NCBI GenBank assembly: GCA_001789635.1
Contig: MGAF01000004.1
Span: 61,105-125,104 of the forward strand
Direction of reading: 5' to 3'
Length of the DNA stretch: 64,000 nt
From: Candidatus Roizmanbacteria bacterium RIFCSPLOWO2_01_FULL_35_13
GTDB taxonomy: Bacteria > Patescibacteriota > Microgenomatia > UBA1406 > GWC2-37-13
Shown here: positions 4,331-46,517 of the stretch, piece after piece
Numbering within the stretch: the stretch's first letter is position 1
How the letters are laid out: each line of letters begins with the position of its first letter
Notes under the pieces: model-generated
The model's input: the letters and a program-made list of their open reading frames with translations, nothing else
The model's database searches: none
Told to the model about the DNA's origin: nothing
Translations under genes and position numbers: made by a program

Positions 4331-4423
4331 GTTTCGAAGCGACTACAGAATCGTTGTTTAAATAAACTACGATTCCGGACCCCACTTCGCTGAAGCTTCG
4401 AGAGGTAAACAAGCCGGAATGAC
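4312..4423. repeat. Family A palindromic repeat, second copy, overlapping 3' end of O-antigen ligase-like gene
   Basis: Same blocks as 3041-3134. Confidence 0.85.
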
Positions 4424-4431
4424 AACTGTTT

Positions 4432-33329: not shown

Positions 33330-33333
33330 CTTT

Positions 33334-33801
33334 TTAAGAACTGTATTCTCCGCGAGAATTTAATGGTCTGTATAGTCGTGAATTATAATTAAACCTTCCA
33401 GCTTTCACCTCAACATTCCATTCCACATTTTTATTATGAGGCCCTTTGGTTGTGATTTTAGTTATTCCTTTATCTTTAAGTTTATTTTTAATCATGATTA
33501 TTTTGTCAGAAGAAATACCTTTAACTCCACCAGCTATAATTGCCTGATCATAATCTGATATAGTTCCAAATTCTAAAAATAAATTAGACATAAGTTCATC
33601 AAAATTGCTTGTTTTAGTTATGTTTCCATAATCGTCAAAGATACAAAATGAATCTATTATAGGTACATGTGCGCCCGTTGATCTAGCTTCGTTCATTAAA
33701 GCTACTGCAAGACAAACATAAAGTCCAACAAATTCTATTGTGTCTTTTCTATTAATGGTTCTAACTTGTCCATAAGGGACTAAAACTGATTCACCTTTCA
33801 T
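33334..33801 (-). CDS. Unknown, possibly CheD-like fold
   Basis: 'DYDQAIIAGGVKGISSDKIIMIKNKLKDKGITKITTKGPHNKNVEWNVEVKAG' loosely resembles CheD. Confidence 0.3.
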   Translation of the reverse strand: MKGESVLVPYGQVRTINRKDTIEFVGLYVCLAVALMNEARSTGAHVPIIDSFCIFDDYGNITKTSNFDELMSNLFLEFGTISDYDQAIIAGGVKGISSDKIIMIKNKLKDKGITKITTKGPHNKNVEWNVEVKAGRFNYNSRLYRPLNSRGEYSS

Positions 33802-33884
33802 ATCTCATATTATATCTGTCGTTTTGGTATATTTGGTATTAAGAGAAAGTAGATATAAAGTATAGACACAAACTTAAATTTTAA

Positions 33885-33904
33885 CTACACCTGTGAGGTG
33901 TAAA
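33885..33904. repeat. REP-like palindrome, divergent copy (CTACACCTGTGAGGTGTAAA)
   Basis: Related to CCGTTACACCTGAAAGGTGTAACGG. Confidence 0.65.
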
Positions 33905-33910
33905 TATTAA

Positions 33911-34207
33911 TTAGTTTTCGTAGACTAATTTAAATGAAGAATTTTTAATATTAAAGGTAACTTCCTCAAAAAAATTGAAAAAACCTGTCCGACCTAATAA
34001 TGGTGTTTTTTGTTGTTCAGAGAATTGAATTTCAGTAGAAAAACTTAGTCCATCTGGTAAAATAATTTCAATATTGCGATGTAAAAATGAAGGGATTTCA
34101 ACTCCTCCAATGCCAAAAACTCTTCTAGGCTCTCCTTTCTTAAAATTGATACCGACACTCTTAGCCATATCTACAGGAAATAAATTTACATCAGAACCTG
34201 AATCCAC
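33911..34207 (-). CDS. Retropepsin-like aspartyl protease family protein; true start may be upstream of listed Met
   Basis: '(ISCLV)DSGSDVNLFPVDMAKSVGI...PLLGRTGFFNFFEEVTFN': DSGS catalytic motif and later LLGR. Confidence 0.65.
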   Translation of the reverse strand: MDSGSDVNLFPVDMAKSVGINFKKGEPRRVFGIGGVEIPSFLHRNIEIILPDGLSFSTEIQFSEQQKTPLLGRTGFFNFFEEVTFNIKNSSFKLVYEN

Positions 34208-34272
34208 AAGGCAGCTAATATTATATGGACTTGTTTTGTGGCTAGGGAGATATTTAATTTTAAGTGATGACT

Positions 34273-34296
34273 AATTACACATTTCAGGTGTAACGG
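34273..34296. repeat. REP-like palindrome upstream of the RAYT, inverted copy
   Basis: AATTACACATTTCAGGTGTAACGG; reverse complement CCGTTACACCTGAAATGTGTAATT. Confidence 0.8.
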
Positions 34297-34377
34297 ATTA
34301 TCAGAATAGTCTAAACAAAAATTTTGTAGCATATAAGCCATTGATATCTTTTTTGACATTAGAGAGAATTTTCAAAT

Positions 34378-35058
34378 ATGCCCGGTAGAGATATCAAATT
34401 CGTGAATGGCGGAATATATCACATTTTTAATAAAACTATTGATAAAAGCAGAATCTTTGATGATGAATCCCTTACTTACTTATTTCTTGACCTTTTGAAG
34501 TACTATCGTTCAAGTAAGTCTGTTATTCGCTATTCAAACTATAAAAAGATGCCATCTGATTTAAAAGAATTTTACAATCAACAAATCATAATCAGAAAAT
34601 ATTTTTTTATTGATCTCTATTGTTTCAATATAATGCCGACTCATTTTCATTTGCTAATTAAACAAAATAATGAGGGAGGTATTTCACATTTCATGTCGGA
34701 CTTAATAAATTCATTTACGCGTTTTTATAATATTAAATTTGATCATCATGGATCACTTTTTTTTAAGCCATTTAGAGCCGTACATGTTCGGACAGAGGAG
34801 CAATGTAAGCATGTTACCAGATATATACATTTAAATCGGTATTCGTCGGGATTGGTTAAAATAATTGGTGATATTTTCATTCGTCCAGACTCATCACTTC
34901 CTCGTTATAGCAGTATTGATAAAGATGATTTAATCGAAAAAAAATTTATGCTTAGTTTATTTGGTAATGATATATTAAGATACAAAAAATTTATACTTGA
35001 TCAAGCCGATTATCAAAGGTCCTTAGAAAGGCTCAAATATATTAAAAAATGGCTTTAG
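34378..35058 (+). mobile_element. RAYT: REP-associated tyrosine (Y1/IS200-like) transposase
   Basis: HUH motif 'NIMPTHFHLLIKQ', candidate catalytic Tyr 'SFTRFYNIKFDHHGSLFFKPFRAVHV', 'VTRYIHLNRYSSG'. Confidence 0.9.
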
Positions 35059-35082
35059 ACATTTTTGAGATGTTCCTATGCT

Positions 35083-35106
35083 CCGTTACACCTGAAAGGT
35101 GTAAAA
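35083..35106. repeat. REP-like palindrome downstream of the RAYT
   Basis: CCGTTACACCTGAAAGGTGTAAAA; with flanks TGCTCCGTTACACCTGAAAGGTGTAA is identical to the uvrB copy. Confidence 0.85.
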
Positions 35107-35145
35107 TGGTGGAGGTATACATTCAACCTTAAATTAAAAAAATAT

Positions 35146-35529
35146 ATGGCAAACCGTGTAGAGATACAGAATATTACAAGGTATTTACAGTCAAAAATTC
35201 TGCAAACATATTCTACGTTAAAACTTTCATGCGGATATGCGGAAGATGCGGCAAGGTTATTACGGGGATGGTTGTACCGTACTGGTGAAGAGTCATCGGA
35301 ATGGGGATCGTGTTATAATGTTGCTGTTGCCCGTTTAGAAAAATCTCGAAGCGGTCTAATTATTGATGTAACTTCACAAGAATTCATTGCTGGTAAAGTT
35401 AGTATTGTATTTAATACAAAACAAACAGCATACGAAATAGAACTAAAATTCGGCATTCCCGGTTGGAAACTTATTCAAACTTATTACAAAAAAGGCGGTC
35501 TCTATGTACCTGACAGAATTACTTTCTAA
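35146..35529 (+). CDS. Unknown protein adjacent to RAYT
   Basis: ORF MANRVEIQNITRYLQSKILQTYSTLKLSCGYAEDAARLLRGW...; earlier listed start lies in the palindrome. Confidence 0.55.
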   Translation: MANRVEIQNITRYLQSKILQTYSTLKLSCGYAEDAARLLRGWLYRTGEESSEWGSCYNVAVARLEKSRSGLIIDVTSQEFIAGKVSIVFNTKQTAYEIELKFGIPGWKLIQTYYKKGGLYVPDRITF

Positions 35530-35619
35530 ACAAAATCATTTCTGTCACTCAAAAATAAACTACAAATTAATTCCATTCCGGGATGTCTGGACTTACTGCT
35601 GTAAAAGAGGTTTCACAAA

Positions 35620-35739
35620 ATGAAAAAAATAATAACCCCATTTATCCTTGCTGTAATTAGAAAAAATAAGAAATATCTTTTAACTAAAAGGCTTGAGATT
35701 GATAAAGAAGATTATAAGGAATTTCTTGGAAGGTGGTAA
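35620..35739 (+). pseudogene. Probable Nudix hydrolase N-terminal remnant
   Basis: MKKIITPFILAVIRKNKKYLLTKRLEIDKEDYKEFLGRW* ends before a Nudix box. Confidence 0.35.
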
Positions 35740-35891
35740 AGAAGCTATAAAACCTTCTCTTTAATAGAGAATTAGTTGTACCCTCCTAATCTTACTTCTC
35801 GCCTTTTTAGTTATATTCGAACACGGCTCGAAGAGCGATTTAAGGACGACACAAGAATCGCTAATCCTCATTCTTCGGAAAGCGATTCTAG

Positions 35892-35991: not shown

Positions 35992-36140
35992 CTAGTCTAT
36001 AAAGTTAGAAAGTTGCAAAGTTAATAAAGCACTAAACTACGATTCTGGATGCGCTTCTCGACAAGCTCGAAGCTTACCAGAATGAGACTAATTACCGATC
36101 TAAACTTTATAGACTTTCGACTTTAGACTTGATGGACTTA
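35992..36140. repeat. Composite family C / family A inverted repeat
   Basis: AGTCTATAAAGTTAGAAAGT...CGATTCTGGATGCGCTTCTCGACAAGCTCGAAGCTTACCAGAATGAG...AAACTTTATAGACTTTCGACTTTAGACTT. Confidence 0.75.
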
Positions 36141-44388: not shown

Positions 44389-44444
44389 AAAGTGTTGTTT
44401 GATTCTGGAGCCGCTTCGAAATTCATCGCTCCCCAGAATGACGA

Positions 44445-46517
44445 TTAGGATTCTTTCAATTCATTAACTTTGTCCCTTATTTTAATGGCAAACTCGAAGT
44501 TAAGATCTTCCGCCTGTCTTTTCATTTCAAGCTCCAGTTTTTTTACAGTTCTTTTTTTGTCGTAAGGTGTCAGTGATTCGGTTTTAATATCTTCCAGAAC
44601 TTTTGACGTGTATTCGGTTTTTCTGTCATTAAACATAGAAGCCCGTTCTCCCTCAATAATTTTCTCTCTCACAGGTTTATAAATAGTTTTAGGTTCGATA
44701 TGGTGTTCTTGGTTATATTTGTTTTGGTAGGAGCGTCTGCGGTCTATCTCTTCGACCGCGCCTTTAATTGATTTGGTGATTACATCCGCATACATTATTA
44801 CTTCACCGGTTATATTCCTCGAAGCTCTTCCCATTGTCTGTATCAGCGAAGTTTTTGATCTTAAAAATCCTTCCTTATCAGCATCCAGAATAGCAACCAG
44901 AGAGACTTCCGGCAAATCCAATCCTTCTCGCAAAAGATTAACTCCGATTAAAACGTCAAATTCATTTTTTCTCAGATTATCCAGAATGTCGGATCGTTCT
45001 AGAGTTTGAATATCCGAATGTAAATAACAGGCGCGGATTTTTCTCTCCTTTAAGTATTCGGTTAAGTCCTCGGCAATTTTTTTCGTTAAGGTTGTAACTA
45101 ATATTTTCTCCTTGTTTTTTACACGCTCCTCAACTTCCTTAATAAGATCCTGTACTTCGTTTTTCGCCGGTCTTATAATAATTTGAGGGTCCACGATGCC
45201 AGTTGGACGAACAAGTTGCTCCGTTACACCTGAAAGGTGTAACGGATTGCTACTGCCTGCTAATTTTGTTTCCCACTCATTTGGTGTTGCCGAAACATAT
45301 ATTAAATGCGGTACTGAAGGATAAAATTCGTCAAATCTCAATGGCCGGTTGTCATAAGCTGCATTTAATCTAAAGCCAAAATCGATTAAAGTTTTTTTTC
45401 TGGCATGGTCTCCGTTATACATTCCTCTCAACTGGGGAACAGTCATATGGGATTCGTCAATAAAAACCAGAAAATTGTCTCCGTAAGCCTGTTTAAAATA
45501 ATTAAGCAGGGAATTAGGCGGATCTCCAGGCTTTCTTCCGTCAAAGTAGCGGGAGTAGTTTTCTATTCCATTGACATATCCGACTTCCTTGATCATTTCC
45601 AGATCATAATTGACTTTTCTGATTAATCTTTCGGCCTCGATGGTTTTATTTTGGGCTTTAAGAATTGCAGATTCTTTTTTTAAATCAGTTCGAATCTGCG
45701 CTTCGGCTGATTTGAAAAGATCCGGATTCATTAGATAGTGCTTAGCAGGATAAATAATAATATATTTTAATTGGGTCGATATGGTAGCCAATTCAACACC
45801 CGAGGTTGAATTGCCTTTTGTGACGATCACTTTGCCACTTAGTGGCTCAAATTTAATTATTTCGTTTATTTTTCCTTTTTTTTCGGTCAATCTGTAACCG
45901 AAGTCTTCATAAGCCGGGTAGATGTCCATGTAGTTACCGCGGATGCGGAAAGTTCCTCTTTTAAATTCAAATTCAGACCGGTCATAAAGCAGTTCAATCA
46001 TTCTTCTTGCAATTTTATTCCAATCGGCTGTTTCTCCGATTTTTATTTCTGCAATGAACTTACCATATTCGACAGGTGAGCCGATGTTATAAATGCAAGA
46101 AACAGAAGCAACCACGATAACATCCTTTTGAATAAGAATATTGGTCGTTGCTCTTAATCTTAATTTGTCGATTAGTTCATTAATCTCTGCCTCTTTTTCG
46201 ATATATGTGTCAGTAGTCGGAATATAGGCCTCGGGCTGGTAAAAATCATAGTAGGAGACAAAGTAGGAAACTTCATTTGTCGGGAAAAAATCCCGCATTT
46301 CCTGGTAAAGCTGACCGGCCAAAGTTTTATTATGGGAAATAATCAATGCCGGCATATTAAGATTCTGGATGACATTTGCCATGGTAAAAGTTTTTCCGGA
46401 TCCTGTGACACCAAGCAAAACCTGATTTTTTAGATTGGATTTAATTCCCTGAGTGAGTTTTTCTATTGCCTGTGGCTGATCTCCGGTTGGTTTAAATCGG
46501 GATGAAAGTTTGAACAT
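44445..46517 (-). CDS. uvrB: Excinuclease ABC subunit B, carrying REP-derived codons
   Basis: '[18 protein letters not shown]', '[18 protein letters not shown]', C-terminal UVR motif. Confidence 0.98.
45221..45245. repeat. REP-like palindrome inside uvrB (CCGTTACACCTGAAAGGTGTAACGG)
   Basis: Perfect 11-bp arms; same as RAYT-flanking copy at 35083. Confidence 0.9.

Follow-up and report, generated by a model that had tools for sequence, protein, structure and literature searches.

The locus and its palindromes

The window analysed here is a 64,000-nucleotide stretch of one contig from a genome (G000) of 1.45 Mb in 61 contigs that is ~90% complete. The nearest named genomes are those of Candidatus Roizmanbacteria and other Microgenomates, and the first-pass annotation, made from the letters alone, was therefore right in its guess of a CPR-like host. 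The window carries a gene for a RAYT-like transposase with a short palindrome on either side, a retropepsin-like ORF beside it, and further copies of the palindrome, one of which lies within uvrB. The features are as follows (window coordinates):

33885–33904, plus strand: variant palindrome, 3′ of the retropepsin-like ORF, with the loop GTG and not GAA
33911–34267, minus strand: retropepsin-like ORF (LVDSGSD), its frame opened by a TAG that adjoins the 34273 palindrome
34273–34296, minus strand: upstream REP-like hairpin, inverted relative to the downstream hairpin, with one stem mismatch
34378–35058, plus strand: RAYT-like Y1/HUH transposase of 226 aa (HUH, H89-F-H91; catalytic residue, Tyr149)
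35083–35107, plus strand: downstream REP-like hairpin, direct copy CCGTTACACCTGAAAGGTGTAAAAT, 24 nt past the RAYT stop codon
44445–46517, minus strand: uvrB, host of a palindrome (Pfam UvrB and UvrB_inter)
45221–45245, plus strand: perfect 25-nt palindrome copy, read in frame within uvrB as NPLHLSGVT

The three copies at 33885, 34273 and 35083 are real where the first-pass annotation had placed them, the one at 33885 with a different loop in a conserved 17-nt frame, TACACCT-NNN-AGGTGTA. The 34273 hairpin aligns with the downstream-flank hairpin at a local alignment score of 21. The only perfect (25/25) copy in the window, at 45221–45245, had been overlooked. Chance is expected to yield 0.00 matches to the 25-mer in the window at up to 3 mismatches, and 0.07 matches to the 17-mer frame with no more than 2 mismatches, for which we found 5. 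The weak fifth match (38726) was discounted as native coding sequence of uvrC, because relatives encode similar residues there without an insertion. A search against Rfam returned only tRNAs above threshold.

The transposase is nearer to TnpA-REP than to IS200/IS605 transposases

The window transposase matches the Pfam Y1_Tnp family above its cut-off (E = 9.9e-6), and its best NCBIfam model is REP_Tyr_transpos (40.5 bits, under the equivalog cut-off of 80), a model that is matched by all 50 of the relatives that we aligned. H15, H89, H91, G125, R148, Y149, N153, S173, F205 and Q213 are invariant in this alignment. The Y1/HUH motifs noted in the first-pass annotation are thus real, but the catalytic tyrosine is Y149 in TRYIHLN (invariant in 50/50) and does not lie in the SFTRFYN stretch quoted there. 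In the Y---N(P) motif the residue after N153 is a proline in the majority of the relatives and an arginine in the window protein.

Searching the PDB with the single transposase sequence gave nothing useful, whereas the profile of the alignment succeeded and ranked E. coli TnpA-REP (4er8) first (6.9e-9) and ISDra2 next (1.6e-3). In the 4er8 alignment H89 and H91 fall on the two histidines of the TnpA-REP HMH, and Y149 falls on the YIYINP motif. A Foldseek search with the AlphaFold model of the protein (pLDDT 94.7) likewise returned 4ER8, the REP-associated tyrosine transposase, as the best match (E = 3.8e-8), with ISDra2 next (3.0e-5). By profile, fold and catalytic residues the transposase is nearer to TnpA-REP than to the IS200/IS605 transposases. 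Y1_Tnp genes are present in 45 of 57 genomes; the eight in G000 are divergent, at 33–78% identity to the window protein, and no near-identical IS copies of the whole unit were seen among them.

The hairpin is dispersed and specific to its genome

Genome-wide palindrome counts were obtained by pattern searches, with the reversed pattern as control. The palindrome, whose presence elsewhere in the genome the first-pass annotation had proposed as a check on its own reading, is indeed dispersed: the 20-mer GTTACACCTNAAAGGTGTAA gave 11 strand-matches in G000 at up to 2 mismatches (site 45221 being counted on both strands) against 0 in the control, and loose matches to the 17-mer frame were found at 30 sites against 2. 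Close copies of the palindrome in G000 number about 11. Some of the repeats form close doublets, 28–29 nt apart (C1:8696/8724, C1:10146/10174 and C28:3863/3892), and hairpin doublets are found on contigs C1, C28 and C31. A separate 20-kb contig of the same genome, C43 (L036), carries seven TACACCT-type palindromes together with genes that, on a reading of their ORFs, we name as a DDE-type transposase and toxin-antitoxin-like genes.

The exact 17-mer frame is present in 15 of the 57 genomes, and its loop is genome-specific among them: GAA occurs only in G000, GTC/GAC mainly in G003, and TTA and ATT in G002. The loops of the dispersed frames agree with the RAYT flanks of the same genomes; in G003, for example, GTC/GAC loops are found at the RAYT flank and in 4 dispersed copies. 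Two genomes of the same genus, G001 and G005, have Y1 genes, none of them flanked by a perfect TACACCT-type hairpin, and contain zero exact sites. Genus members that are without a RAYT of this hairpin type are therefore also without the exact 17-mer frame, in keeping with the expectation that relatives lacking the RAYT should not carry the palindrome. No exact match to the 19-mer TTACACCTGAAAGGTGTAA occurs in the genome_contigs collection (~85,000 other genomes, G000 itself left out). A second RAYT of G000 (C1:1262) is flanked by a different repeat, TTCCACCCGTCGGGTGGAA, which has 12 sites against 0 in the control.

A palindrome copy in uvrB and other in-gene matches

The uvrB gene that hosts the perfect palindrome copy has full-length homologues in most relatives, at up to 79% identity. 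The loop between SATP and RPTG varies widely in length in the relatives, and the NPLHLSGVT sequence is without trace there. From this comparison the palindrome would be an insertion that added NPLHLSGVT to a variable loop whose ancestral sequence is uncertain. In another Roizmanbacteria genome, G030, an unrelated palindrome, GGAACGCAGATCTGCGTTCC, stands in the same uvrB loop. This repeat has 8 sites in G030 and is missing from five genomes that belong to the same genus as the window; its presence in the loop argues that the loop accepts palindromes independently. The dispersed palindrome recorded in G030 (CP066689.1) at C1:610356 and 7 other sites, GGNACGCAGATCTGCGTNCC, with one copy in the uvrB loop, has no match to the flanks of the three G030 Y1 genes that were read.

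Among protein genes uvrB is the one firm case of an in-frame palindrome. A match in mutM (C52:8790) was rejected as an insertion since relatives natively encode similar residues, and those in a peptide deformylase (C19), a MiaA-like gene (C50) and C53 have two mismatches and were judged to be chance from the surrounding residues, not from an alignment. In a membrane-protein gene the palindrome frame stands at the same place in three genomes (G000:C58:9819, G002:C2:5844 and G006:C16:3243) and is missing in others; the site is ambiguous between an old shared insertion and a native HLKGV motif. The window also contains another dispersed repeat, ~50 nt long and of the form GATTCYGG...CCRGAATGA, at 4340–4425, 36041–36090 and 44401–44447; in a membrane-protein gene (G000:C58:8777–10186) a related copy appears to contribute the in-frame peptide PHSAEASRGKQAGMT. 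As REP insertions in coding genes have been reported previously (PMC3733652, PMC6006769), the uvrB copy is a new case and not a new phenomenon.

Most related transposase loci have matching flanks of differing sequence

For each transposase gene, the sequence upstream was locally aligned, in both possible orientations, to the sequence that follows the stop codon; this unbiased procedure was used in place of a strict test for pairing of perfect hairpins. A repeat common to both flanks, at a score of at least 13, was found in 44 of 50 units compared with 108 of 2450 swapped pairings (4%), and 0 of 5000 permutations reached the observed sum; 6 of the 50 units have no shared flank repeat at score 13. 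The same holds for 66 further loci, most of them belonging to other CPR lineages and a few to Omnitrophota and Elusimicrobia: 55 have a shared flank repeat against 99 of 4290 swapped pairings (2%), with 0 of 5000 permutations as high. Taken together, 99 of the 116 related loci have matching flanks, with repeat sequences that differ from one locus to another. In the 50 units the usual spacing is ~100 nt between the upstream repeat and the start codon and 20–35 nt between the stop codon and the downstream repeat; the positions are more variable in the 66 further loci. Hairpins with arms of at least 8 occur at both flanks in 10 of the 50 units, compared with 0 in shuffles and 0 inside genes. The flank hairpins have a common apical ACC/GGT stem and a variable outer stem, and the GT[AG]G foot of the canonical REP is present at 5 of 220 hairpin feet.

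Because hairpin sequences vary from unit to unit and are found again at other sites of the genome concerned, the cognate REP/RAYT pairing put forward in the first-pass annotation is well supported, with matching flanks, a dispersed hairpin and an exact form that is found in no other scanned genome. We conclude that the locus is very probably a REPtron, that is, a RAYT (a TnpA-REP-type HUH transposase) together with its own short hairpin repeats.

Alternatives to a REPtron

Among the other explanations the one that survives best, although we consider it unlikely, is an ordinary IS200/IS605-like insertion sequence, in which the hairpins are the subterminal ends and the scattered ones derive from solo ends or from copies that have decayed. 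The fixed positions of the hairpins on both sides of the gene would fit such an element, as would a motif near AYARTCTA that 9 of 29 flank tails carry on the side facing the gene (0.2 expected) and that is reminiscent of element ends. Pair orientation cuts both ways: in one clade the pairs are mostly direct (10 direct, 4 inverted, 2 ambiguous), like IS200 ends, whereas in the clade of the window gene they are mostly inverted (15 inverted, 4 direct, 4 ambiguous). Against an insertion sequence, the dispersed hairpins recur without the gene, the protein is closer to TnpA-REP in profile and fold, and the divergence of the eight G000 copies is unlike that of an active IS.

The second alternative, a composite element whose RAYT mobilises the retropepsin as cargo along with the palindromes, concerns the genes around the transposase. 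These lie between tRNA-Arg(TCT) and tRNA-Leu(GAG) (window 33330–35891), an interval that adjoins the same binding-protein gene in relatives and is a hot spot, its gene content often differing among the relatives examined. It holds a NUDIX gene alone in G002 and G006, and a NUDIX gene with other genes in G003, G004 and G005. Since the interval in the relatives holds only NUDIX or other genes, something has been gained in the window, namely the ORF at 33334–33801, the retropepsin-like ORF, the RAYT and the ORF at 35146–35529, the last of which is in no other of 37 genomes searched. The empty site is not placeable to the base, because the gene content of the interval varies between relatives. The NUDIX hydrolase gene, of which five relatives have an intact version in this tRNA-bounded position, is a relic in the window (35621–35740), where the N-terminal 39 residues and a stop are followed by a fragment that matches the C-terminus.

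The gain at this site and the position of the retropepsin-like ORF between the 33885 and 34273 palindromes are what a cargo gene would lead one to expect, as the first-pass annotation had suggested. However, the lineage-specific block begins before 33885 and ends past 35107, reaching ORFs outside the palindromes on both sides; it is wider than the palindromes, which thus do not mark its edges. The palindrome at 33885 moreover differs in its loop, and no retropepsin homologue was found near any other RAYT locus examined. With a block that outruns the palindromes and no retropepsin at the other loci, the cargo claim is unsupported, and a composite element is very improbable. The retropepsin-like ORF, which matches Asp_protease_2 under the cut-off (E = 0.0028; 18.8 bits against 24.3), is probably a neighbour of the RAYT and not its cargo.

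It is hardly credible that the hairpins terminate or attenuate transcription of the transposase and other genes, for although one of them lies just past a stop codon, this downstream hairpin has no following T-run, and the same hairpin, which is specific to gene and genome, also stands upstream of the gene and, in perfect form, inside uvrB.

Proposed mechanism and comparison with known systems

By analogy with the biochemistry of TnpA-REP (PMC8266576), the RAYT of the proposed REPtron would recognise the hairpin as a folded single strand, along with unpaired bases near it, and would cut beside the hairpin via a tyrosine-DNA bond. Such cutting could infrequently move or copy short hairpin units, with the lagging strand as the probable site, and the copies would persist where they are tolerated, mostly in intergenic DNA and once as an in-frame peptide in the variable UvrB loop. 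Divergence of the RAYT lineages may in turn give rise to new hairpin sequences.

Systems of the REP/RAYT kind are already known. REPtrons consist of a RAYT/TnpA-REP with REP/REPIN repeats (Quentin et al. 2018, PMC6006769; Corneloup et al. 2021, PMC8266576; Bertels and Rainey 2011, PMC3116915). The version of hairpin and transposase found here, in Roizmanbacteria-type bacteria, seems to be undescribed so far; a literature search for RAYT and Patescibacteria returned unrelated papers only. Like REPtrons, it has a divergent, low-copy HUH/Y1 transposase with its own flanking hairpins and dispersed copies. That each transposase has a private hairpin is in line with the rule set out in PMC6006769, and the close doublets among the repeats of the window's genome are like REPINs. 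Unlike textbook REPs, the hairpins are without the GT[AG]G foot (also missing in subclass 2.6 and class 3; PMC6006769), combine the common apical stem with a variable outer stem, and form direct or inverted pairs by clade; at about ten close copies they are also scarce compared with classical REPs, for which high copy numbers are reported. A protein of ~226 aa with a helical C-terminal extension and a CPR host further distinguish the system from known REPtrons.

In protein length, 'SS' residues and the Y[IV]HLNP signature the transposase is like subclass 2.1 TnpA-Y1, a putative membership that amounts to a resemblance in signature residues and length. No REP-like hairpins were found alongside subclass 2.1 (Quentin et al. 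2018, PMC6006769), whereas each repeat here is itself a hairpin, and is dispersed. The TIRtrons, or TIRYTs, are RAYT-like genes without GTAG repeats and with inverted repeats on their flanks (Di Nocera group 2013, PMC3733652), and our locus is like them in both respects; the terminal inverted repeats of TIRtrons feature a GGGGWSAS motif. IS200/IS605 elements (IS608, ISDra2) share the HUH/Y1 fold and the hairpins on either side of the gene, and differ in their weaker structural and profile match and in the divergent gene copies and dispersed solo hairpins seen here. Like the Rickettsia palindromic elements (RPE), which insert in frame into many protein genes, the palindrome is tolerated in frame within a protein-coding gene; it differs from them in its length of 25 nt, in its link to a transposase that could be identified and in having uvrB as the single firm case within a gene. 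What is novel is that the GTAG foot is missing and that the protein resembles subclass 2.1, for which REP-like structures were reported to be lacking.

More broadly, the CPR/Microgenomates may have a REPtron class of their own, a proposal for which we see the chances as even. Such a class would combine subclass-2.1-like RAYTs with private hairpin families that are built on a common ACC/GGT apical stem, have no GTAG foot and are still mobile, the hairpins occasionally entering tolerant loops of essential proteins and adding short in-frame peptides.

These findings extend REP/RAYT systems to the very small genomes of the CPR, where dispensable DNA is scarce. With more than 100 transposase loci, most of which have matching flank repeats of differing sequence, the locus set can be used to learn how enzyme and hairpin co-evolve without the guide of a GTAG, and uvrB provides a concrete example of a repeat with a link to a transposase being taken into a conserved protein.
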